DNA of 51,283 nucleotides from Acetobacteraceae bacterium (GTDB lineage: Bacteria > Pseudomonadota > Alphaproteobacteria > Acetobacterales > Acetobacteraceae), in assembly GCA_027488195.1 (NCBI GenBank), contig JAIYCD010000177.1:1-51283 (forward strand), read 5' to 3'. Below, piece after piece: positions 2,744-44,975 of this stretch. The translations under genes were made by a program, and so were the position numbers. The number at the start of each line of letters is the position of its first letter. Within the stretch, counting starts at the first letter, position 1. Under the pieces are notes generated by a model that was given only the letters and a program-made list of their open reading frames with translations, made no database searches and was not told where the DNA came from.

Positions 2744-2833
2744 TGCTTCTCAGAACCACCCGGCCGCAAGGCGGCCGGCGCCGCCCAGCCGGACGTCTCA
2801 CCCAGCGCAACCGCCGCCCGGCGTCTGAGGGCG
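2744..2833 (-). repeat. Element A unit 1 (structured repeat 3' of the DUF2889 gene)
   Basis: Read on the minus strand, the unit starts two bases after the stop codon of the DUF2889 gene with CGCCCTCAGACGCCGGGCG and ends near GGTGGTTCTGA. It contains a perfect 8-bp hairpin (2760-2767 with 2771-2778, loop CTT on the minus strand), the same hairpin as in the units at 38.4 and 44.7 kb. The middle part carrying CTTGGCTTC is not recognisable here. It fills the gap between two convergent genes. Confidence 0.7.
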
Positions 2834-3427
2834 TTAAATCTGGCTCTCTTCGCGCTTTTCGGCGAGGTCGCTCCATTCCGGCCATTTCTTGCGCACCACC
2901 GGGCTGTCCGGCGCATAGGCGTGGCAGGTGCCGAGCAGCGCGGGGCGCTTGCGCGGCGCGCCCGTGGCCTCGGCCTGGCGCTGGGCGGCCTGGCGGCGGC
3001 TGCGCAGCGGCCACATGGTCTGGAAGGCGACGGTGCCCATCTGCGCCAGCACCTCGCGCAGATGGGTGCAGCCCAGCACGCCGCCCACGCGCTCATTCAC
3101 CGCGCGGTTGAAGCCGGGGCCGATGGACAGCCCCGCGAGATTGGCGAAGGCCGGCGTGGCCCCTGTGCAGACGGCGAAGGGCGTGTGGTCCGAGGCGGCC
3201 TCGCAGGCGATGATCAGCATGTCCTGGTTGATGGTCATGCGGATCCACATGCCGTGGATCGGGTCGCCCGGGCCGACCTGGCCGCGATGCTCGGAGGGGA
3301 AGCCATAAGTCTTGGTGTCGGTCAGATGGGCCTCGATGTCCACGAGACCGTCCTCGCGCACATAGCCGCGCAGCTGGATGTCGCGCAGATGTTCGAGCTT
3401 GCGGGGAGCGGGGGCGGAAAGGGGCAT
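2834..3427 (-). CDS. DUF2889 domain protein
   Basis: A 197-residue soluble protein with no signal peptide or membrane segment. It matches the general look of DUF2889 proteins, with a conserved core around RDIQLRGY, DTKTYGF and a C-terminal CTHLRE stretch. That family has no assigned activity that I know of. The start at 3427 (MPLSAPAPRK) was chosen because the upstream in-frame extension overlaps secB antisense and has no family-like sequence. It is divergent from secB with a 115-bp gap and convergent with the RND gene. A structured repeat (element A) follows its stop directly. Function unknown. Confidence 0.8.
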   Translation of the reverse strand: MPLSAPAPRKLEHLRDIQLRGYVREDGLVDIEAHLTDTKTYGFPSEHRGQVGPGDPIHGMWIRMTINQDMLIIACEAASDHTPFAVCTGATPAFANLAGLSIGPGFNRAVNERVGGVLGCTHLREVLAQMGTVAFQTMWPLRSRRQAAQRQAEATGAPRKRPALLGTCHAYAPDSPVVRKKWPEWSDLAEKREESQI

Positions 3428-3542: not shown

Positions 3543-4022
3543 ATGTCCGACCAGCCCCTCCCCTCCGCGAATGGCAGCACCGGCCAGGAGCAGATGCCGA
3601 TCGTGCTCAACATCCAGTTCACCAAGGACCTCTCCTTCGAAGTGCCCGGCGCGCCGGGCATCTTCGCGACGCTGCGCGAGCAGCCGCGCGTGGACCTGGC
3701 GCTGGACGTCCAGGCCCGCCCGATCCAGGAGGGCGAGAATGTCTTCGAGGTCTCGCTGATGATCCGCGCCGACGCGAAGGTGGGCGAGACGCCCTGCTTC
3801 ATCGCGGAGCTCACCTATTGCGGCATCTTCACCATCAACGTCCCGCAGGAGCATCTGGAGCCGGTCCTCCTGGTGGAATGCCCGCGCCTGCTCTTCCCCT
3901 TCGCCCGCAACATCCTGGCCGATGTGACGCGCGAGGGTGGCTTCCCGCCGGTGATGCTGAACCCGATCGATTTCGTGCAGCTTTGGCAGAATCGCCGCGC
4001 CCAGCCCGTCGGCACGGCGTGA
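3543..4022 (+). CDS. secB: Protein-export chaperone SecB
   Basis: Cytosolic tetrameric chaperone that keeps preproteins unfolded and hands them to SecA. The 159 residues show the SecB core: NIQFTKDLSFEVP near the N-terminus, then ELTYCGIFTI and a C-terminal half with CPRLLFPFARNI and GGFPPVML. Length is normal for alphaproteobacterial SecB. Start 3543 follows an AAAGG stretch; the upstream in-frame ATG at 3525 lacks family sequence. The last codons and the stop are part of a 25-bp tandem array that continues past the gene. Confidence 0.96.
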   Translation: MSDQPLPSANGSTGQEQMPIVLNIQFTKDLSFEVPGAPGIFATLREQPRVDLALDVQARPIQEGENVFEVSLMIRADAKVGETPCFIAELTYCGIFTINVPQEHLEPVLLVECPRLLFPFARNILADVTREGGFPPVMLNPIDFVQLWQNRRAQPVGTA

Positions 4023-4100
4023 CGCCCAAAAAGGTTGCACGGCGTGACGCCTAACGAGGTTGCACGGCGTGACGCCCAACGAGGTTGCACGGCGTGAATT
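4012..4100 (+). repeat. 25-bp tandem array copying the secB 3' end
   Basis: Three 25-bp units (4012-4036, 4037-4061, 4062-4086) and a partial fourth (4087-4100). Each begins GCACGGCGTGACGCC. The first unit holds the last codons and TGA stop of secB, so every copy repeats the gene terminus with its stop codon. Units differ at two or three positions. Confidence 0.9.
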
Positions 4101-6644: not shown

Positions 6645-7738
6645 TCCTCCTCCTCTCCGCCGCGCATACGAGCGACGACATGCGCGTGGTCCGCAAGGAG
6701 GGCGAAAGCCTCGCCGCGGCGGGCTGGGCGGTCACGCATCTCTCGCCCGCGCCGGCACGCCCCATCGGCGCCGTCGCGGTGGAGACGGTGCCCGGCGCGG
6801 CCCGCCGGCGCCGCTGGTGGGCGCTCTATGCGCGCGCCGTGGCGCTCAGCCCCCGCGTGATCCACGCCTCCGAGCCCGATGCCTGGATCATCGGCTGGCT
6901 CGCCGCCCGCCGCACCGGCGCCAGGCTCGTGCTGGATGTGCATGAGCATTATCCCTCGCGGCTCGATGCGCGGCTGCCACCCTGGCTGCGCCCCCTGGCG
7001 CAGGGCGCGATCCGCCGCGTGATGCGGGCGCTGGGCCGCCGCGCCGATGCCGTGGTGCTGGCGAAGGACGGCCTGGCGGAGGACTTCCCCGGCGCCCGCT
7101 GCGTGGCGGTCCGCAACCACGCGCTGGTGCCCGCGCGCCTGCCCCGCCGCCGCCATGGACCGGGCCCGGTCACGCTGCTGCATCTGGGCGCCATCGGCGT
7201 TGCGCGTGGCTGGCCCGTGCTGCTGGAGGCGCTGGCGCTCTGCCCGGAGGGGACGCGGCTGCTGGTGATCGGCGGCTTCACCGATGGCAGCGAGGCCGCC
7301 TTCCACGCGGCGGCCGAGGCGCGCGGCCTGTCGGGGCGCATCACCTGCACCGGCTGGCTGCCGGCGGAGGCGGCGATGGCCCGCGCGGCGATGGCCGATA
7401 TCAACCTGGTGCTCTTCCAGCCGGGCGAGGAAAACCACCGCCTTGCCTTGCCGCACAAGCTCTTCGACGGCATGGCGCTCGGCCTTCCCGTCATCGCGCC
7501 GCATTTCGCGACCGGTGTCGCCGCGATCGTGGAAGAGAGCGGCTGCGGCGTGCTGGTGGACGTGACGAACGCCCACGCCATCGCCGCCGCCGTGCGGGAA
7601 TTGGAAGACCCCGCGCGCCGCGCTTTCCTGGGCGAGGGCGGCTGGCAGGCCGCGCGCGGCCCCTGGGGCTGGCCCGCGGAAGCCGAGAAGCTCGTGGCGC
7701 TGTATCGCGACTTGCTGGACCAGAGCATGATGCGTTGA
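6641..7738 (+). CDS. Glycosyltransferase family 4
   Basis: Second GT-B transferase of the sugar operon, 365 residues. The N-terminus ILLLSAAHTSDDMRVVRKEG is the typical acceptor-domain start of exopolysaccharide GT4 enzymes. LVLDVHEHYPSR and the donor-site region around LPHKLFDGMALGLPVIAP support the call. Its ATG overlaps the previous stop (ATGA). Its own stop codon lies inside a palindromic repeat (element B). Acceptor and donor sugars cannot be told from sequence. With the DegT enzyme it probably makes or decorates a cell-surface glycan; no polymerase or flippase is visible nearby. Confidence 0.88.
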   Translation: MILLLSAAHTSDDMRVVRKEGESLAAAGWAVTHLSPAPARPIGAVAVETVPGAARRRRWWALYARAVALSPRVIHASEPDAWIIGWLAARRTGARLVLDVHEHYPSRLDARLPPWLRPLAQGAIRRVMRALGRRADAVVLAKDGLAEDFPGARCVAVRNHALVPARLPRRRHGPGPVTLLHLGAIGVARGWPVLLEALALCPEGTRLLVIGGFTDGSEAAFHAAAEARGLSGRITCTGWLPAEAAMARAAMADINLVLFQPGEENHRLALPHKLFDGMALGLPVIAPHFATGVAAIVEESGCGVLVDVTNAHAIAAAVRELEDPARRAFLGEGGWQAARGPWGWPAEAEKLVALYRDLLDQSMMR

Positions 7739-7772
7739 GGCGGAATCGCCGAAACGCTGAATCATCCTCTCA
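7725..7772 (+). repeat. Element B copy 1 (palindromic repeat at a gene 3' end)
   Basis: ATGAT (7727-7731) pairs with ATCAT (7761-7765), GCGTT (7732-7736) with AACGC (7753-7757), and an inner GGCG with CGCC. TGA forms a conserved bulge, and CCTCTCA follows. The stop codon of the upstream glycosyltransferase lies inside the first arm. The same architecture with different stem bases recurs at 12411. Confidence 0.75.
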
Positions 7773-7819
7773 GCAAAGGCTAGAGCTTGCGAAGTGAACG
7801 CATGTGAACGCAGCAGGCT

Positions 7820-8317
7820 CTAGGTGTTCCTGCGCCGAAGCGCGAGCCGCTTGGCCGGCTCGCCCGTCGCGCGGCCGGCCAGGATGTCGCGCACCGATTC
7901 CGGCCAGGGCGTGACCCGCCGAATGCCGAGGTCCACGCAGAGATACAGCACCTCATGCTCCGAGGCGGTCCAGCCTTCGGTGAAGTGGAACATGCGGTGC
8001 TTCACCAGCAGGCGCTTCTCATCGGCGGCCAGCACGGTGCTTTCCGCGCCGATCGGCATCGCCTCGGTCATTTCGCGCTGGTAGTCGAGCCAGGCCTCGG
8101 CCGCGAAAGTGCCGAGGCCGGCCTGCTTCAGCGCGGTGCCCAGCCCCAGATGCGGCCAGAGCCGGTCCGTCTGGAGGTCATAGGCGACGAGGTAGTAGCC
8201 CATGTTGAGATGGCGATACCCATCCACCCATTCGCGCTTCACCGCGACGAGCGGCGTGTCCCACCGGAACCAGCCACCCTCGATGCGCGGCGCCGGACCA
8301 TCCTCGACAAAGGGCAT
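7820..8317 (-). CDS. Hotdog-fold acyl-CoA thioesterase (4HBT-like)
   Basis: A 165-residue single-domain protein with the hotdog signature region WVDGYRHLNMGYYLVAYD near residue 30. The Asp/His-Asn pattern there is typical of 4HBT and carnitine-pathway thioesterases. These hydrolyse an acyl-CoA (or betainyl-CoA) to the free acid. No membrane segment. It is the second of two minus-strand genes after the RraA-like gene, 137 bp apart with an element A unit between them, so co-transcription is uncertain. Substrate unknown. Confidence 0.75.
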   Translation of the reverse strand: MPFVEDGPAPRIEGGWFRWDTPLVAVKREWVDGYRHLNMGYYLVAYDLQTDRLWPHLGLGTALKQAGLGTFAAEAWLDYQREMTEAMPIGAESTVLAADEKRLLVKHRMFHFTEGWTASEHEVLYLCVDLGIRRVTPWPESVRDILAGRATGEPAKRLALRRRNT

Positions 8318-8340: not shown

Positions 8341-8454
8341 AGCAGAATCAGGACCGCCCTCCGAGAATCCGGGCCGAATAGGCCCGGCGGGATGCTTCAG
8401 CATCCAGAAGCCAAGCGCGCGGACGCGCGCGCCCGGCGTCTGAGGGCACCAAAA
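8341..8454 (-). repeat. Element A unit 2 (3' of the RraA-like gene)
   Basis: Begins just past the RraA stop on the minus strand. Order of parts: GCCCTCAGACGCCGGGCG, hairpin GCGCGC/GCGCGC, CTTGGCTTC, hairpin GGATGC-TGAA-GCATCC (8390-8405), a 7-bp hairpin (8369-8375 with 8381-8387), and the tail GGATTCTCGGAGGG. All three hairpins are perfect in their stems. Confidence 0.8.
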
Positions 8455-9159
8455 TCAGTGAATATCGTCAGACTTGCTCAGCGCCTCGCGCAGCTTGCCG
8501 ATGTCGAAATCGGGGCGCTTCGCCATCTCCAGGATCACGGCCTCCTTGCGGCTCAAGAGGTCGATCGCCTCCAGCAGGCCCTTCACCGCCTCGGCCGGGA
8601 TGGTGACGGCGCCGTGGCGGTCGGCATGGACCACCTCGTCATGCTGCACCTGCATGCCATGCACCGTGACCGGCCGGCCCCAATCCACCACATGCACATA
8701 GGCATGGCTCGGGTTGATGATGCCGAGCAGCTGGAAGCCGGGCGCCACCATGTCGAGATCGCGGATCGAGCCGTTGGTGACGCAGCCCAGCGCCTTCAGC
8801 CCCTTGTGGACATTGGTGTTCACCTCGCCCCAGAAGGCGCCGGTGCCGGGCACGTCATCCAGGTCCTGCAGGACGACCACGGTCGGCATGTCGGCATTCG
8901 CGACGTACTCGTACCAGCCGATGCGCGAGGCGCGGTCGGCCTCCTTCGTGCGGCCCGAGGGGAATTGCGCGCGGATGGTGCCGACGCGGGCGGGCCCGCA
9001 GATCGGCTTCATCGTGGGGTGGGCGCAATCAAAGGTGCGGACGGTGAAGCCATGGCCGCGGCGGGCGGGGACGACGAGTTCCAGCGCGTTGCAGATGGTG
9101 GGGGTGTCCCAGGCGCAGAGCGCGTCGAGATCGGCTTGGGTATAGGGGCGCGTGACCAT
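8455..9159 (-). CDS. RraA-family protein (demethylmenaquinone methyltransferase/HMG aldolase-like)
   Basis: A 234-residue protein of the RraA/4-hydroxy-4-methyl-2-oxoglutarate aldolase superfamily. TNGSIRDLD (Arg133, Asp134) matches the substrate and metal-binding G-x-R-D region. HADRHGAVTIP (Asp180) matches the second conserved block. Members either act as divalent-metal aldolases/decarboxylases on oxo-acids or bind RNase E. Soil-type alphaproteobacteria often carry several metabolic paralogues, which I consider likelier here than RNase regulation. The ATG at 9159 has AGGAGG seven bases upstream. It is divergent from the porin gene. Confidence 0.82.
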   Translation of the reverse strand: MVTRPYTQADLDALCAWDTPTICNALELVVPARRGHGFTVRTFDCAHPTMKPICGPARVGTIRAQFPSGRTKEADRASRIGWYEYVANADMPTVVVLQDLDDVPGTGAFWGEVNTNVHKGLKALGCVTNGSIRDLDMVAPGFQLLGIINPSHAYVHVVDWGRPVTVHGMQVQHDEVVHADRHGAVTIPAEAVKGLLEAIDLLSRKEAVILEMAKRPDFDIGKLREALSKSDDIH

Positions 9160-11260: not shown

Positions 11261-12408
11261 TGCGCTTCTCCCCCACCATCCTGGCGACGGCCGACCCCGC
11301 CATCCCCGCCGCCCGCGCCTGGGCGGCGCGCTACCAGGGCCAGCGCGGCCCGGCGCTCGACCTCACACAGGCGGTGCCGGGCTATCCGCCGCATCCGGAA
11401 TTGCTGGCGCGCCTGGGCGAGGCGGCGGGGCAACGGGCCGCGGCCAGCTACGGCCCCATCGCCGGCGACGAGGCGCTGCGCGCGGCCCTGGCCCTGGATG
11501 CGAGCGGCTTCTACGGCGCCGCCATCGGCCCAGAGCATGTCGCCATCACCGCCGGCTGCAACCTGGCCTTCGCCATGGCGATGAAGGTGCTGGCCGCCCC
11601 CGGCGACAATGTGCTGGTCCCCACCCCCTGGTATTTCAACCACGAGATGGCGCTGACCATGGCCGGCGTCGAAGCCCGCCCCCTGCCCTGCGAGGCCGCG
11701 CAGGGCTTCGTGCCCGATGTGGCGCGTGCCGCCACGCTGATCGACGCGCGCACCCGCGCCATCCTCCTCGTCAGCCCCAACAACCCGACCGGCGCGGTCT
11801 ATCCGGCCGAGGTGATCGCTGATTTCGCCGAACTCGCCCGCAGCCGCGGCATCGCGCTGGTGCTGGACGAGACCTATCGCGACTTCCTGCCCAACAGCGT
11901 GCCGCATCGCCTGTTCAGCGACCCGGATTGGGGCGATGTGCTGGTGCATCTCTACAGCTTCTCGAAGGCCTATTGCATTCCGGGCCACCGGCTCGGCGCC
12001 GTCATCGCGGGCGAGGCTTTCCAGCACCAATTGGCCAAGGCGCTGGACACCTTGCAGATCTGCCCGGCGCGGCCGGCGCAGCAGGTGGTGGCCTGGGCGA
12101 TCCCCGCGCTGCGCGACTGGCGCTCGGACAACCGGAAGATCATGCAGGCCCGCGCGAGCGCCTGCCGCGCCGCGCTCAACAGCGACTGGATAGACGCGAT
12201 GGGCAGCTACTTCGCCTATCTGCGCCTGCCCAATGGCGCGCCGGATGCGATGGCGGCCGCCGAATACCTGGCCGCCGAACAGGGCTTGATGACCCTGCCC
12301 GGCCCCTTCTTCGGCCCCGGCCAGGAGCGCCACCTGCGCCTCGCCTTCGCCAATGCGGAAGCCGAGCGCCTGGCGGAACTTCCGGCGCGGCTGGCGGGGT
12401 TGGGTTAG
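11260..12408 (+). CDS. PLP-dependent aminotransferase, class I/II
   Basis: 382-residue fold-type I aminotransferase. It shows the substrate and cofactor motifs ITAGCNLAFAMAM, SPNNPTGAVY, LDETYRDF and SFSKAYCIPGHRLG with Lys236 as the cofactor lysine. The ending LPGPFFGPGQERHLRLAFAN supplies the carboxylate-binding arginine. The amino donor and acceptor cannot be set from sequence; aspartate- or aromatic-type is possible. It starts on the last base of the glycosylase stop codon (TGATG). Convergent with the hydantoinase gene. Confidence 0.88.
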   Translation: MRFSPTILATADPAIPAARAWAARYQGQRGPALDLTQAVPGYPPHPELLARLGEAAGQRAAASYGPIAGDEALRAALALDASGFYGAAIGPEHVAITAGCNLAFAMAMKVLAAPGDNVLVPTPWYFNHEMALTMAGVEARPLPCEAAQGFVPDVARAATLIDARTRAILLVSPNNPTGAVYPAEVIADFAELARSRGIALVLDETYRDFLPNSVPHRLFSDPDWGDVLVHLYSFSKAYCIPGHRLGAVIAGEAFQHQLAKALDTLQICPARPAQQVVAWAIPALRDWRSDNRKIMQARASACRAALNSDWIDAMGSYFAYLRLPNGAPDAMAAAEYLAAEQGLMTLPGPFFGPGQERHLRLAFANAEAERLAELPARLAGLG

Positions 12409-12410
12409 AG

Positions 12411-12459
12411 CATGATCCGCTGAGGTGAAATCACCGAAGCGGTGAATCATCCTCTCAAC
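12411..12459 (+). repeat. Element B copy 2
   Basis: ATGAT (12412-12416) pairs with ATCAT (12446-12450), and CCGCT (12417-12421) with AGCGG (12438-12442). The inner GGTGA pairs with TCACC, and the TGA bulge and CCTCTCA tail are kept. Compared with copy 1 the stems differ by paired changes (G-C to C-G, T-A to C-G, C-G to T-A). It starts three bases after the aminotransferase stop. Confidence 0.78.
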
Positions 12460-12464
12460 CAATA

Positions 12465-12510
12465 GCTGGACGCTGATCCGCGCTTCTATCTGCGCGCATC
12501 AGGGTCCAGC
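12465..12510. terminator. Imperfect inverted repeat between convergent genes
   Basis: GCTGGACGCTGAT (12465-12477) pairs with ATCAGGGTCCAGC (12498-12510) with one mismatch, and CCGCGC/GCGCGC extends the stem. There is no T run. It sits between the convergent aminotransferase and hydantoinase genes, where a bidirectional terminator would be expected. Confidence 0.5.
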
Positions 12511-16080: not shown

Positions 16081-16180
16081 TCACCCGGGCAGACGCGCGA
16101 CCACCCTATCCGGGCAGCCGAGCCACCACCCTATCCGGGCAGCCGAGCCACCACCCTATCCGGGCAGCCGAGCCACCACC
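16081..16180 (-). repeat. 25-bp tandem array copying the histidine-kinase 3' end
   Basis: Three identical 25-bp units (16106-16130, 16131-16155, 16156-16180) beginning CTATCCGGGCAGCC, and a degenerate fourth at 16081-16105. On the minus strand each intact unit reads VVARLPG-stop. The copy at 16156 is the real C-terminus of the kinase; the others lie beyond its stop. Confidence 0.92.
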
Positions 16181-17580
16181 CTCAACCCGCCGCCCTCGCG
16201 GTTCGAGAGCGTCACCTCGCCGCCATGCGCGCGCAGGATGCTGCGCGCGATGGTGAGGCCGAGGCCGGTACCGCCCGTCTCGCGGTTGCGGCTGCCCTCG
16301 ACGCGATGGAAGGGCTGGAACACCGCCTCCTGCTCCGTCTCGGGGATGCCGGGCCCGTCATCATCCACGGTCAGCACCGCGCCACGGTCGCGCTGCTCCA
16401 GCGTGAGCCGCGCCGCATCCCCGTACTTCAGCGCATTGCCGACAAGGTTTGCCAGCGCCCGCTTCATGGCCACGGGGCGCAATTGCAGCACCAGGTGCTC
16501 CGGCCCCGCATAGGCGATGCTGGAGGCGCGCTCTGGCGCCGCATCCCCCGCCTCATCCAGCACGGTGCGCACGAGGCTGGCCAGATCCACCGCACCCGCC
16601 GGCTCATTCGCCGCATCGTCGCGCGCGAAGGTCAGCGTGGCGGCGATCATCGCCTCCATCTCGGCGAGGTCCGCCAGCATCTTCGCGCGCTGCTCGTCAT
16701 CGTCGAGGAATTCGGCGCGCAGGCGCAGCCGCGTGATGGGCGTGCGCAGGTCGTGGCTGATGGCCGCCAGCATCTGCGTCCGGTCGGCCACGAAGCGGCG
16801 GATGTTGCTGGCCATGGTGTTGAAGGCCGCCGCCGCGGTCGCGACCTCGCGCGGGCCGTTCTCGGGCAAAGGCGGCGCATTCACGCCGCGGCCCAGCCGC
16901 TCGGCGGCGGCGGCGAGGTCCGTCACAGGCCGCGTCAGCCGCCGCACCGCCCACCAGGTCATCAGGGCCGCGGCGAGCGACATGGCGAGGAAGGCGACCA
17001 GGAAATTGTCGGAATGCCAGGGCCGGGGGGCCGGCATGCGGATGGTCAGGTTCAGCCAGCCCTGGTCCGGGAAGCGCATCGAGACGGCGAAGCTGCTGCG
17101 ATTGAGCGCGCCCGAATGCACCTCGATCGGCCGGAAGCGGCGGGGCGGCGGGGGCAGGCCACCGCCATCCAGGCGGAAGGCCCCTGGCGGGGGGCGCGGC
17201 GGCCCGTCGCCATCCGGCCGGGGCCGTGGCGGCGGGGGCGGCGGGGGCGGGGCGGCGTCCAGCCGGAACCAATTCGCCAGCGGCAGCGGCACAAGCGGCA
17301 GCCCAGGCGGCAGGGTCGAATGCGCGTCATAGGTGGCGCCGAGCGTGGAGGGCAGTTCAGCCTCGGCCAGGATGGCGGCCCGGCGCTCGGGCGGGGCCGT
17401 CACCAGCGCGCGCCACAGGCTGAAGACGCGCAGCGCCGTCTCCCGCGCCTCCGCCGCGCGCTGCAATTCCACGCGGTCGAAGGCATGGATGGTCAGCCCC
17501 ACCGCCTGCACCACCATCAGCCCGAGGATCAGGACCAGCGCGGTGCGGCCGGCGAGGCTGCACGGCCAGAGCCGCCTCAT
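16156..17580 (-). CDS. Sensor histidine kinase (EnvZ-like, HAMP) with proline-rich sensor region
   Basis: Membrane sensor kinase, 474 residues. TM1 is about 11-31 and TM2 about 193-212, followed by HAMP. The phosphorylated His276 lies in AISHDLRTPITRL. The N-box is NLVGNALKYG, with G1 DDDGPGIP and G2 GGTGLGL. The periplasmic part carries an unusual proline-rich stretch at about 109-151, including eight consecutive prolines, and it looks poorly conserved. Its start overlaps the regulator gene by 4 bp (ATGA), so the two form one operon. The signal is unknown. Confidence 0.93.
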   Translation of the reverse strand: MRRLWPCSLAGRTALVLILGLMVVQAVGLTIHAFDRVELQRAAEARETALRVFSLWRALVTAPPERRAAILAEAELPSTLGATYDAHSTLPPGLPLVPLPLANWFRLDAAPPPPPPPPRPRPDGDGPPRPPPGAFRLDGGGLPPPPRRFRPIEVHSGALNRSSFAVSMRFPDQGWLNLTIRMPAPRPWHSDNFLVAFLAMSLAAALMTWWAVRRLTRPVTDLAAAAERLGRGVNAPPLPENGPREVATAAAAFNTMASNIRRFVADRTQMLAAISHDLRTPITRLRLRAEFLDDDEQRAKMLADLAEMEAMIAATLTFARDDAANEPAGAVDLASLVRTVLDEAGDAAPERASSIAYAGPEHLVLQLRPVAMKRALANLVGNALKYGDAARLTLEQRDRGAVLTVDDDGPGIPETEQEAVFQPFHRVEGSRNRETGGTGLGLTIARSILRAHGGEVTLSNREGGGLRVVARLPG

Positions 17581-18400: not shown

Positions 18401-18482
18401 GTCGCGGCCCAAAGGGCCGAGCGCGCGACCGCGCGCCGCGGCGCATGCCGCGAAGCCAAGGCGGCCCGCCCGGCATCTGAGG
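18401..18482 (-). repeat. Element A unit 3 (3' of the SDR gene)
   Basis: Minus-strand reading gives CCCCTCAGATGCCGGGCGG, CTTGGCTTCG, hairpin CGCGGC-ATGC-GCCGCG (18437-18452), GCGCGC/GCGCGC (18421-18436) and GGCCC-TTT-GGGCC (18406-18418). The hairpin order differs slightly from other units, but the anchors and orientation are the same. A separate terminator-like hairpin lies between it and the SDR stop. Confidence 0.6.
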
Positions 18483-18507
18483 GGCACGAAGGCGCTTCCT
18501 TCGTGCC
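18483..18507 (-). terminator. Terminator-like hairpin after the SDR gene
   Basis: Perfect 10-bp stem GGCACGAAGG / CCTTCGTGCC with a 5-base loop, starting 8 bases past the SDR stop. It lacks a T run, so termination efficiency is uncertain. Confidence 0.6.
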
Positions 18508-28875: not shown

Positions 28876-29802
28876 ATGATCGCCTATCTCGATGCCTTCA
28901 TCCCCGCCTTCGGCCTGCTGGCGCTGGGCGCGCTCCTCAAGCGCGGATTGCTGCGTGACGACGCCGTCTGGGCCGGGATCGAGCGGCTGATCTTCTGGGT
29001 GCTGCTGCCGGCCCTGCTGGTCGCCGCCATCGGCTCGGTCAAGCTCGGTGAATTGCCCGTGCTCGGCATGATGGCGGCGATCTGGACCGCGCTGGCCATC
29101 GGCACCGCGGCCTCCCTCGCCATCGCGCGCGGCTTCCGTCAGCCGCATGCCTCGATGACCAGCGTGCTGATGGGCGGCATCCGCTTCAACAATCTGATCG
29201 GATTCGCGGTGGCGGGCGCGCTGTTCGGAGCACCCGGCGTGGCACTCGGCGCCGTCGCCACCGGGCTGATCGTGCCCTTCGTGCAATTCGTGACCAACAC
29301 GGCCTTCGCAACCGGCGGCGGCCGCCGCTTCCAGCCCTGGCCCGTGCTGCGGCAGATCGCGCTCAACCCGCTGATGCTGGCCTGCGTCGTGGGCTTCGCG
29401 GTGGCCTGGCTGGGCGGGTTGCCGCCCGGGGTGAAGCCGCTGCTGGAAGCGCTGGGCCGCGCCTCGGTGGCGCTCGGGCTGCTGGCGGTGGGTGCCGCCC
29501 TTTCGGTCGGCGCCATGGCGGACCGGCTGCCGCTCCAGCTCGTCACCACCGCGCTCAAGCTCGTGGTGATGCCGGGGCTGACGCTGCTCTTCTGCCTCTG
29601 GCTCGGGCTTGATCCGCTCTCCACCGCCATGGCGGTGCTGTTCATGGCGCTGCCCACCGCCGCCACCTCCTATGTCATGGCGCGCGCCATGGGGGGCGAT
29701 GCGCCGCTCATGGCCGCCATCACCTCGACCGAGCATGTGCTCTCGGTCCTGAGCCTGCCGCTCTGGCTGCTGCTGGTGAAGCACCTGACCGGGTTGGGCT
29801 GA
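28876..29802 (+). CDS. AEC-family (auxin efflux carrier-like) permease
   Basis: 308-residue integral membrane protein with about ten hydrophobic segments in two halves. The first half begins FIPAFGLLALGALLKRG and has IRFNNLIGFAVAG; the second ends MALPTAATSYVMARAMGGD. This is the pattern of the AEC/malonate transporter family. The substrate is likely an organic anion but unknown. Start 28876 has GAGAGGGG upstream. A 25-bp tandem array follows the gene. Confidence 0.9.
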   Translation: MIAYLDAFIPAFGLLALGALLKRGLLRDDAVWAGIERLIFWVLLPALLVAAIGSVKLGELPVLGMMAAIWTALAIGTAASLAIARGFRQPHASMTSVLMGGIRFNNLIGFAVAGALFGAPGVALGAVATGLIVPFVQFVTNTAFATGGGRRFQPWPVLRQIALNPLMLACVVGFAVAWLGGLPPGVKPLLEALGRASVALGLLAVGAALSVGAMADRLPLQLVTTALKLVVMPGLTLLFCLWLGLDPLSTAMAVLFMALPTAATSYVMARAMGGDAPLMAAITSTEHVLSVLSLPLWLLLVKHLTGLG

Positions 29803-29820
29803 GACGGGCCGGCGGGCCCT

Positions 29821-29940
29821 ATCGCGTGCGCCTCCGGCGCGCCATATCGCGTGCGCCTCCGGCACGCCATATCGCGTGCGCCTCCGGCACGCCATATCGC
29901 GTGCGCCTCCGGCGCGCCATATCGCGTGCGCCTCCGGCGC
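29821..29940 (+). repeat. 25-bp tandem array between the AEC permease and diguanylate cyclase genes
   Basis: Four full 25-bp units (29821-29845, 29846-29870, 29871-29895, 29896-29920) and a 20-bp partial fifth. The consensus begins ATCGCGTGCGCCTCCGGC. Units differ only at a G/A in the GCGCGCC segment. Unlike the secB and kinase arrays, no gene end is copied. An ATG in the array opens a longer frame into the cyclase gene, but it lacks family sequence. Confidence 0.93.
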
Positions 29941-30002
29941 AACGCAATCTTCACCCCTTCCCCGATAGGAAGCTTGCGGAGAAGAGGACGTCGCCGCCGC
30001 TC

Positions 30003-37373: not shown

Positions 37374-38274
37374 GCCCCGCGCCGATCAGGCAGAACCCCT
37401 TTTCGACCGCCTCTGCCTGATAGGTGCCGGCCTCATCGGCGGCTCCGTCGCGCGGCGCAACCGCGAGGGCCGTGCCCTGGCGCGCGAAGTCGTCGTCACC
37501 GCCCACAGCCAGGCCACGCGCGACCGCGTGCGCGAACTGGGCTTCGCCGACCGCGTCGAGGATGATCTCTCCGCCGCCGTCGCCGGGGCGGATTGCGTCA
37601 TCCTCTGCGTGCCCGTCGGTGTCTATGCGCAGGTGATGGCGAAGATCGCGCCGCATCTGAAGCCCGGCGCCATCCTCACCGATGTCGGCTCCACCAAGGG
37701 CTCCGTCATCCGCGACCTGACGCCGCTGCTGCCCGCGGGCGTGCATCTCGTCCCCGCGCACCCGATGGCCGGCACCGAGTATTCCGGCCCGGATTCCGGC
37801 TTCCCCACGCTCTTCGAGGGGCGCTACGTCATCGTCACGCCGACTGAGGGCACGGACCCGGCGGCGGTGGAGCGGGTCCGCGAATTCTGGCGCCGCTGCG
37901 GCTCCATGATCGAGAGCATGGACCCCGTCACCCATGACAAGGTGGTGGCCATCGTCTCGCATTTGCCGCACCTCATCGCCTTCACCATCTGCGGCACGGC
38001 CGATGACCTCAGCGAGGAAACCCGCGAGAGCGTGCTGAAATTCGCCGCCTCCGGCTTCCGCGACTTCACGCGCATCGCGGGCAGCGACGTGAACATGTGG
38101 CGCGACGTCTTCCTCAACAACCGCGAGGCGGTGCTGGAAATGCTGGCCCGCTTCACCGAGGACGCCCAGGCCTTCGGCCGCGCCATCCGCTGGGGCGAAG
38201 CGGGCTTCATCGAGGACCGCATCAAGCGCGGCCGCAAGATCCGCCACAGCCTGATCGAGCGGAAGCAGGCTTGA
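37366..38274 (+). CDS. Prephenate/arogenate dehydrogenase (TyrA/TyrC family)
   Basis: 302-residue NAD(P)-dependent dehydrogenase that makes 4-hydroxyphenylpyruvate from prephenate or tyrosine from arogenate. The nucleotide fold has [12 protein letters not shown] (19-30). [13 protein letters not shown] and SHLPHLIAF carry the family's active-site His and Gly positions. The C-terminal helical domain is present. No mutase or ACT domain is fused. It overlaps hisC by 8 bp. Element A units start directly after the stop codon. Confidence 0.92.
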
Positions 38275-38360
38275 TTTAGTGCCCTCAGTCGCCGGGCGCG
38301 CGCTCCGCGCGCTTGGCTTCGGATCGCTGAAGCGATCCGGCTCGGCTATTCGCCTCGCAT
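38275..38360 (+). repeat. Element A unit 4, shortened (3' of the prephenate dehydrogenase gene)
   Basis: GCCCTCAGTCGCCGGGCG starts a few bases after the TGA. Then comes a GCGCGC/GCGCGC hairpin, CTTGGCTTC and the hairpin GGATCGC-TGAA-GCGATCC (38321-38338). The last hairpin and tail are missing. The unit ends near TGTTTTTAG, where the next unit begins. Confidence 0.8.
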
Positions 38361-38367
38361 GTTTTTA

Positions 38368-38496
38368 GCGCCCTCAGGCGCCGGGCGCGGCCTCCGGCCG
38401 CTTGGCTTCGCCGCGCGACGGCTGCGCCAGGCCGGTCACTCAGTTGGGCGGCGCCGGCCGCTTCGCGGCCGGATTTTCGGAGGGTCGTGCCTGGTT
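38368..38496 (+). repeat. Element A unit 5, full length
   Basis: GCGCCCTCAGGCGCCGGGCG, hairpin CGGCC-TCC-GGCCG, CTTGGCTTC, a G/C-rich middle, then the 8-bp hairpin (38454-38461 with 38465-38472) and tail GGATTTTCGGAGGG. It runs up to the stop codon of the convergent GGDEF-EAL gene. Confidence 0.82.
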
Positions 38497-44438: not shown

Positions 44439-44711
44439 ATGCTGGATGTTCTCTCCCCCATGGTGCGCCAAAAGGACTGGCGCCTCACCACGGCGGAAAT
44501 CCTCTACCACCTGCCCGACCATCCCGGGCTGTTGCAGAGCTTCATCTGGCAGAAGCACGATTTGGCCCCGGCCTTCCCCGAACTCACCCGCTTCCTGGAC
44601 TTCTGGAAGCGCGAGATCGAAGGACCGCTCCACTCCGTTCGCGTGGCCAGCGCGGCGCTGATCAAGCCGGCCGACCTGAAATACGCGAACGGCGTATTTA
44701 TGCTTCATTAG
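44439..44711 (+). CDS. usg: Usg-family protein
   Basis: 90-residue protein with the Usg-family core: LTTAEILYHLPDHPGLLQSF, WQKHDLAPAFPEL, FLDFWKREIEGPLHSVRVA and the C-terminal NGVFMLH. The family is widespread in alphaproteobacteria, with no settled function that I know of. Start 44439 has GGAGG seven bases upstream; a TTG start at 44409 would add ten residues outside the family. It is divergent from groES, with the CIRCE-promoter region between. Two element A units follow its stop. Confidence 0.88.
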   Translation: MLDVLSPMVRQKDWRLTTAEILYHLPDHPGLLQSFIWQKHDLAPAFPELTRFLDFWKREIEGPLHSVRVASAALIKPADLKYANGVFMLH

Positions 44712-44842
44712 CGCCCTCAAGCGCCGGGCGCCGGCTCCGCCGGCTTGGCTTCGCCGCGCGACGGTCGCACCAGGCGGCTCGCCCGGTTGGGCGGCGCCGG
44801 CCGCCTTGCGGCCGGATTCTTGGGTGTTGGTCCTGATCCGAA
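44711..44842 (+). repeat. Element A unit 6, full length
   Basis: Starts on the last base of the usg stop codon: GCGCCCTCAAGCGCCGGGCG. Then hairpin CCGGC-TCC-GCCGG, CTTGGCTTC, the 8-bp hairpin (44797-44804 with 44808-44815), and tail GGATTCTTGGGTGTTGGTC. It is repeated head to tail after exactly 132 bp. Confidence 0.88.
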
Positions 44843-44975
44843 GCGCCCTCAAGCGCCGGGCGCCGGCTCCGCCGGCTTGGCTTCGCCGCGCGACGGTCGC
44901 ACCCGGCGGCATGTCCGGTTGGGCGGCGCCGGCCGCCTTGCGGCCGGATTCGCTGGGGTTCGGCCTGACCTGATG
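44843..44975 (+). repeat. Element A unit 7, tandem copy of unit 6
   Basis: Same order of anchors and hairpins as unit 6. Differences cluster in the spacer before the last hairpin and in the tail (GGATTCGCTGGGGTT). No gene is supported in the rest of the gap up to hemY at 44996. Confidence 0.88.

Follow-up and report, generated by a model that had tools for sequence, protein, structure and literature searches.

Do the structured units that stand after stop codons at five loci of an Acetobacteraceae contig act as RNA at the ends of messages, or are they copies of a repeat that persists as DNA? The window, meaning the whole stretch of DNA analysed, comprises 51,283 nt of the forward strand of JAIYCD010000177.1 (GCA_027488195.1, Acetobacteraceae bacterium), and its source is a draft genome (G000) of 4,566,525 bases (4.57 Mb) in 346 contigs, 88% complete. 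A sequence-only reading of the window had described seven units of one family, termed Element A, as a gene-oriented, structured repeat that may be a transcribed element of 3' untranslated regions.

Seven units in the window

The seven reported units share the core CCCTCANNNGCCGGGCG, which occurs with zero mismatches in all of them and nowhere else in the window. When up to three mismatches are allowed, the window contains 51 occurrences against a shuffle mean of 42.7, and 7 of 100 shuffles reach 51; mismatched forms are therefore near chance, and the exact form alone counts. The second motif ascribed to most units, CTTGGCTTC, is present in six of the seven, missing from the unit reported at 2744-2833, and its other occurrences in the window (21454, 43267 and 43408) adjoin no core. 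The genes named beside the units, DUF2889, RraA-like, SDR, prephenate dehydrogenase and Usg, were correct according to Pfam. In the list below, R1 denotes the type I covariance model described in the next section.

Unit 1, 2757..2840, minus strand: degenerate type I without CTTGGCTTC; core at 2831 (-); R1 match 2757-2833.
Unit 2, 8366..8455, minus strand: type II, directly 3' of the RraA-like stop codon; core at 8446 (-); R1 match 8366-8448.
Unit 3, 18401..18507, minus strand: short variant after the SDR gene; core at 18483 (-); no R1 match at E<=0.01.
Unit 4, 38273..38361, plus strand: type II, after prephenate dehydrogenase; core at 38282 (+); R1 match 38280-38361.
Unit 5, 38362..38475, plus strand: type I, head-to-tail with unit 4; core at 38371 (+); R1 match 38369-38475.
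Unit 6, 44705..44818, plus strand: type I; core at 44714 (+); R1 match 44712-44818.
Unit 7, 44837..44950, plus strand: type I; core at 44846 (+); R1 match 44844-44950.

The tip of unit 1 (TTTAACG) contains the stop codon TAA of the DUF2889 gene, and that of unit 6 (ATTAGCG) contains the stop codon TAG of usg. Unit 7 is a tandem copy of unit 6, the two forming a 132-nt direct repeat with a 132-bp period and 91% identity, while unit 3 has an additional hairpin, GGCACGAAGG..GCCTTCGTGC, on the 5' side of its core.

Other repeats are also present in the window. A second dispersed palindromic repeat, AGAGCATGAT..GAATCATCCTCTC, with GANTC sites, lies at 7722-7823 and 12407-12510, and pieces related to it have many occurrences in relatives. 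Three tandem arrays, unlike in sequence, all have a 25-bp period (4012-4097, 16085-16182 and 29784-29963).

Copy number and distribution

The existence of a repeat family was borne out by a covariance-model search of the source genome and a core search of its relatives. Exact CCCTCANNNGCCGGGCG occurs 62 times in the draft genome and the reversed-pattern control 0 times; the 55 copies outside the window were retrieved with their flanks, and the script recovers 62 of 62. The R1 model, built from 25 type I copies, gives at least 74 matches in the draft genome at E<=0.01, a number that may be an undercount, as 150 of 17,613 first-look candidates were scored.

The core was searched in 147 genomes. 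All 20 other genomes of the genus carry it at 2 to 115 copies, some of these drafts being incomplete, with the maximum of 115 in G009. Six other genera of the family have 13 to 47 copies, and four genomes from other families of the class have 15, 16, 20 and 198 (the last in G131). Among the remaining genomes, four have 2 or 3 core copies and the others 0 or 1, the control level. In a scan of named genomes, 80 of at least 101 stretches fall mainly in Roseococcus, Roseomonas, Rubritepida, Falsiroseomonas and Neoroseomonas, with at least one match each in metagenome-assembled genomes that bear the labels Niveispirillum, Rhodospirillales and Hyphomicrobiales. In distant versions the core and the hairpin following it are retained, often with CTTGGCTTCG or a near form, and the outer hairpins differ.

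In G131, which belongs to another family, at least 7 of the 19 copies examined (L194-L201) are of one highly uniform version, whose outer hairpin resembles CAGTGATCGG..CCGATCACTG; this uniformity suggests recent spread. In Roseococcus sp. SDR (L133, 1319-2003), a four-unit array with a 93-bp period starts about 30 nt past the tmRNA gene. A type I copy searched against 72,556 plasmid and 50,697 phage records was unmatched in both, and a G131 copy was unmatched among the plasmid records; the searches covered these two copies, and records very near the source genome are possibly absent from the collections.

Anatomy of Element A

Element A spans approximately 90-120 bp, its exact ends being inferred from conservation, and consists of a tip rich in T, a constant core, and palindromes in which the stem sequences vary and the pairing persists. 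The parts follow in a constant order: the tip, the core CCCTCARRCGCCGGGCG, a variable-stem hairpin with a TCC loop, CTTGGCTTCG, and type-specific hairpins ending in GGAT. In the source genome the tip has the consensus TTTTTRRYG, and T occupies positions -8 to -5 upstream of the core in 35 to 47 of the 62 copies. Across 188 distinct copies from several species, T makes up 49-69% at -9 to -5 and G 91% at -1, with the RR at -4 and -3 weaker than in the source genome. In the hairpin after the core, the G/C stem varies freely around the TCC loop.

Beyond CTTGGCTTCG the two types diverge. Type I runs on through CCGCGC, a variable segment of almost constant length and GGCGGCGCC to a CCGGCCGC..GCGGCCGG hairpin that closes with GGAT; type II carries two hairpins, the first of them resembling GGATC-GCTGAAGC-GATCC. 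The script resolved the end in 87 of the 188 distinct copies, the other 101 having no resolvable end; among these 87, type I ends 103-104 nt from the core start in 56 and type II at 79-80 nt in 14. On the 3' side of GGAT the sequence is G-rich, with a weak GGAGGGC that is complementary to the 5' GCCCTC.

Occupied, empty and otherwise filled sites in relatives

When orthologous gaps are compared between related species, they differ in whether a copy is present, of which type and how many, and both relics and head-to-tail arrays are found. All five window sites (5/5) are occupied in G009 and four of five in G016, with arrays at three and the site of unit 3 (18401) empty; by script, two window sites are alignable in G006, one in G005 and none in G015. 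The 2744 site has four matched units in G016 and no copy in G006. The 8341 site, that of unit 2, is occupied in G009, G016 (three units) and G006, and holds a different repeat in G005.

Two junctions show the element between closely packed genes. hisC and tyrA (NCBIfam names) overlap in G000; in G009 a type II copy lies between them, HisC ending at the TGA of the tip (TTTGACG), and the G016 junction keeps a relic, TTTGACGCCCT. At G011:C1:917623, a copy splits the ATGA start-stop overlap of two genes, intact in G004, such that the upstream protein has the same end residues and the downstream reading frame is kept.

This last insert, compared with the empty G004 site at the ATGA overlap, is flanked by the 8-bp repeat CTCATGCC. 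Such a flank, together with the weakly complementary ends, fits a miniature inverted-repeat element (MITE) left by a DDE transposon, bounded by the short inverted ends GCCCTC/GAGGGC and duplicating 8 bp of its target, an origin that we regard as improbable. No general target-site duplication was found, however: 8 of 74 flank pairs share at least 8 nt, where about 8.5 are expected from shuffled pairs. The inverted end measures only about 6 bp, and the 3' half is weakly conserved.

In the window and the loci at hand, neighbouring pairs less than 260 nt apart are head-to-tail in 25 cases, have facing 3' ends in 2 and facing 5' ends in 0, and arrays in G009 are evenly spaced, for example at 93 and 117 nt.

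A third palindromic repeat, GGCCTCCGGCGGCTGGGGCC..GGCCCCAGCCGCCGGAGGCC (L049 of G006; L050 and L086 of G005), fills gaps that hold Element A in relatives. In G005 it follows the RraA-like gene; it also stands behind prephenate dehydrogenase, in G006 and in part in G005, with other genes downstream there.

An intrinsic or bidirectional transcription terminator between convergent genes, one of the roles that had been suggested, would be in keeping with the 24 of 51 sites in the source genome that lie in convergent gaps. It would also agree with the gaps in which something other than Element A stands: another palindromic repeat at the 8341 site of G005 and, in G006 and partly in G005, behind prephenate dehydrogenase, and an unrelated hairpin in G004 at the 1337218 site of G011. 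The base frequencies after GGAT and before the core nevertheless reveal no T-run after the hairpins in either direction, the T-run instead preceding the core, so a canonical intrinsic terminator is unlikely. Copies are, moreover, placed between closely packed co-directional genes, which may share a transcript, as at hisC/tyrA in G009, at the overlapping pair in G011 and at junctions where GAGGG precedes a start codon. Overall, the terminator reading is the least credible of those weighed here.

Gene context and orientation

Gene starts and stops were taken from a hexamer-based codon-model caller, not from curated annotation, and background gaps were those of at least 60 nt without a copy in the window and 44 further stretches (402,856 bases in all). 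The 62 copies of the source genome form 51 sites, apart from 4 contig-edge copies that were not classed, and no classed copy lies inside a gene. These sites comprise 24 convergent, 25 tandem and 2 divergent gaps, against 7, 83 and 55 among unoccupied gaps, so that convergent gaps are over-represented (p=5e-11) and divergent ones under-represented (p=6e-7). In the named set (80 of at least 101 loci; 72 sites and 14 edge copies), 14 convergent, 55 tandem and 3 divergent sites compare with 20, 109 and 68 unoccupied gaps; divergent depletion recurs (p=5e-8), and the convergent excess is not significant (p=0.06).

At all five window loci, the 5' end of the element lies near a stop codon and reads in the direction of that gene, as had been described. 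Three of the five (2744, 38275 and 44711) are convergent, however, so either orientation would meet a stop-side rule there. Genome-wide, proximity to stop codons stands: the 5' end adjoins a stop at 39 of 50 single-orientation sites of the source genome and is at most 40 nt from it at 38 of them. Strict gene orientation is not supported, since the 5' end faces a start codon at the other 11 of 50, and tandem gaps contain 15 sense and 9 antisense copies among 24 single-orientation sites (p=0.31), with one further mixed site. In the named set, the 5' end adjoins a stop at 47 sites and a start at 24, and tandem gaps hold 34 sense and 21 antisense copies (p=0.10). Pooled, 49 are sense and 30 of 79 antisense (p=0.04), so that orientation relative to neighbouring genes, whose full randomness was to count against the sequence-only reading, is nearly but not fully random. 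Gene orientation is a tendency, and is automatic in convergent gaps. The original description of a gene-oriented 3' UTR element thus survives in part, as a structured, extragenic element with a stop-side tendency, and is not supported as a strict rule of orientation. The mild sense preference could also be explained by an RNA role, and for the favouring of the stop side over the start side (39 versus 11) purifying selection alone could suffice.

The gyrase-binding BIMEs are kept at the ends of transcription units. A comparable DNA site here, retained at such ends and bound by a protein of the chromosome (gyrase, a nucleoid protein or a cell-cycle methylase system), seems distinctly unlikely, even though the palindromes are strand-symmetric, convergent gaps, where positive supercoils meet, are preferred, and the core CCCTCARRCGCCGGGCG and CTTGGCTTC are conserved. 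A range of 2 to 115 copies across one genus, some genomes being incomplete, is loose for an essential site, and GANTC occurs in only 22 of 62 copies, compared with 17 of 87 background gaps.

Covariation of the stems

The units had been called structured, and the type I alignment confirms this with strong covariation, scoring 0.244 versus 0.057 in shuffles. In its 25 sequences and 24 pairs, 98.5% of cells pair, and both-side changes number 52 against 16.7 in shuffles.

Selection on RNA normally gives many G-U pairs and few A-C pairs. Over 233 distinct copies, with hairpin 1 resolved in 229, hairpin 2 in 27 and hairpin 3 in 115, the stems contain 2158 Watson-Crick, 12 G-T, 17 A-C and 60 other pairs; an earlier count on 214 copies gave 8 G-T and 11 A-C. 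G·T mispairs thus do not outnumber A·C, no RNA-strand signature is seen, and the covariation carries no sign of one strand being selected as RNA. RNA from both strands could in principle also yield this symmetry, which is conceivable since copies occur in both orientations and many lie in convergent gaps.

At the 8341 site, the stem of the second hairpin reads GGATG in G000, GCAAA in G009, GGAGA in G016 and GGAAC in G006. This hairpin differs wholesale among the orthologous copies, with the neighbouring hairpins largely unchanged, a pattern that looks more like palindrome turnover than stepwise compensation.

These counts bear on the reading of Element A as a transcribed 3' UTR RNA, whose hairpins would shield the upstream mRNA from 3'-to-5' exonucleases or whose cleavage by RNase III would set its ends. 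The frequent proximity of a stop codon, at most 40 nt from the 5' end, the covariation itself, the strong convergent-gap preference in the source genome and the array past the Roseococcus tmRNA gene all agree with such a role. The lack of a strand signature, the 30 antisense copies among 79 single-orientation tandem sites, and the sites that are empty or filled by another repeat in relatives speak against it, as does the window, where no Rfam family matches at the gathering score. (In four other loci, tmRNA is the sole match type above that score.) The RNA role is a candidate that the covariation test does not favour and that is, on the whole, unlikely.

Tips at stop and start codons

A stop codon lies at most 8 nt from the core, and hence overlaps the conserved 9-nt tip, at 22 of 39 stop-adjacent sites in the source genome and 27 of 47 in the named set; the DUF2889 and usg sites of the window are not the only ones of this kind there. 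With all frames counted, 29 of the 62 own copies carry a stop triplet within the 9-nt tip, and 9 of 62 carry one within a control stretch lying further upstream; for all copies at hand the numbers are 90 and 31 of 251. At the exact TRR position, a stop triplet is seen in only 18 of the 62 own copies and 41 of the 251 at hand.

When a copy is antisense to the next gene, the complement of CCCTC in the core presents GAGGG to that gene. Twenty-five distinct genes have a start codon no more than 60 nt from an antisense core, and in 15 of them GAGGG stands 6-9 nt before the start codon, nine at exactly 9 nt. In 5 of the 25 the distance is 1-4 nt, too close for a Shine-Dalgarno sequence, and in the remaining 5 it is 12-49 nt. 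The spacing fits the supply of a putative Shine-Dalgarno sequence by the element in many antisense cases. As the tip can supply a stop codon and the reverse strand places GAGGG before starts, Element A may sit within operons without breaking them.

Comparison with described repeat families

In the broad sense of a REP, with many copies, extragenic location and a preference for convergent or co-directional gaps, Element A qualifies, with 62 copies and 24/25/2 convergent, tandem and divergent sites. Its pattern of location agrees with that reported for REPs as a whole (PMC3733652). A match to a known REP family, which would have told against the sequence-only reading, was not found among the RAYT-type and CGTC classes.

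RAYT-type REPs were rejected on two grounds. The consensus has no GTAG-like tag beside a 20-40 bp hairpin, its T-run is followed by CCCTCA, and its units are about 90-120 bp long; and a search for the Y1/RAYT transposase domain PF01797 gave no match in 20 of the 21 genus genomes, among them the source draft (88% complete) and the 115-copy G009. PF01797 is present in G017 (three matches) and, outside the genus, in G131 (198 copies) and G096 (one match each), all of which carry the repeat. GTAG-tagged REPs and BIMEs resemble Element A in lying outside genes, in forming hairpins and in tips that can give a stop codon, GTAG termini often providing TAG (PMC3733652, PMC2817692). Element A differs from them in that its consensus lacks the GTAG tag, its copies do not alternate in orientation, and no Y1 transposase was found in G000 or in 19 of the 20 other genus genomes.

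The CGTC-REPs of Alphaproteobacteria are extragenic, mostly in convergent or co-directional gaps and often less than 20 bp from 3' ends; no dedicated transposase is known for them, their spread across the class is uneven, and their tags vary to CCTC (PMC3733652). They are described as single hairpins of 8-9 bp with A-T first pairs, mostly a CCA tail and mainly head-to-head dimers, and are reported missing from Acetobacteraceae (PMC3733652). Element A shares the extragenic location and has a CCTC string inside its core, and is unlike these repeats in its length of about 90-120 bp, two or three hairpins, head-to-tail arrays and a consensus without the CCA tail. Membership was rejected, the consensus having no A-T-opened stem or CCA tail and the pairs being 25 head-to-tail against 2 facing.

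The Caulobacter CIR repeats are similar in their length of about 110 bp, their alphaproteobacterial host, their intergenic position and their two long palindromic arms, and are described as having a conserved GANTC exposed at the loop (PMC2229807). In Element A, unlike in CIRs so described, only 22 of 62 copies contain GANTC, in 19 cases within CGGATTC at a stem base, against 17 of 87 background gaps; membership was rejected, and a link to CcrM is weak.

RepRanger counts 1,369 REPs in Lichenicola cladoniae, an alphaproteobacterium (PMC12306157). Literature searches by sequence strings, by Acetobacteraceae with repeat terms and by Roseomonas with extragenic palindrome, largely in papers outside subscription, returned no description of Element A among the titles and abstract openings listed. 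Without the tag-stem-tail of GTAG- or CGTC-REPs and with head-to-tail arrays, it is filed as REP-like and not as a member of either class. The best reading is a new REP-like palindromic repeat family, set apart by their descriptions from CGTC-REPs, GTAG-REPs and CIRs, the three groups that the comparison covered.

Discussion

Element A is probably a family of non-coding, extragenic palindromic DNA repeats, REP-like and distinct from RAYT-type REPs. Such repeats would spread as DNA through some mobilising activity, their palindromes would be maintained at the DNA level, and they would be tolerated at gene junctions by virtue of a tip compatible with translation. In one direction the tip could hold the stop codon of the upstream gene; in the other, it could place GAGGG at Shine-Dalgarno distance from the next start codon. 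Effects exerted as RNA, for instance in protecting the 3' ends of mRNA, would have arisen as a by-product or been acquired later. A point against the DNA-repeat reading is that no transposase has been identified, PF01797 not being found in 20 of 21 genus genomes.

A bolder proposal, which we hold tentatively and on balance doubt, is that Element A is a mobile palindrome transparent to operons. Its tips would have evolved to suit start-stop junctions: on insertion there, the gene before it would retain or acquire a stop codon, and the gene after it would acquire a ribosome-binding site, GAGGG with a short spacer in the antisense reading. The element would hence be able to enter co-transcribed and even overlapping genes and leave them intact, and would spread across Alphaproteobacteria by a non-RAYT enzyme. 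The low count of exact TRR stops (41 of 251 copies) slightly lowers the standing of this proposal.

What is new is the family itself, the absence of RAYT in nearly all genus genomes, the head-to-tail growth, and the tips that often overlap stop codons or are spaced as ribosome-binding sites. Palindromic repeats outside genes abound in bacterial chromosomes and are little understood, and no mover is known for the CGTC class of Alphaproteobacteria (PMC3733652). Annotation is affected as well, as in G009 the tip alters where HisC ends, and tips may also alter gene starts. With dozens to about 200 copies in some genomes, empty and occupied sites in relatives, and tips seemingly matched to start and stop codons, Element A offers a tractable case of how a repeat spreads, piles up at gene ends and possibly shapes translation in operons.
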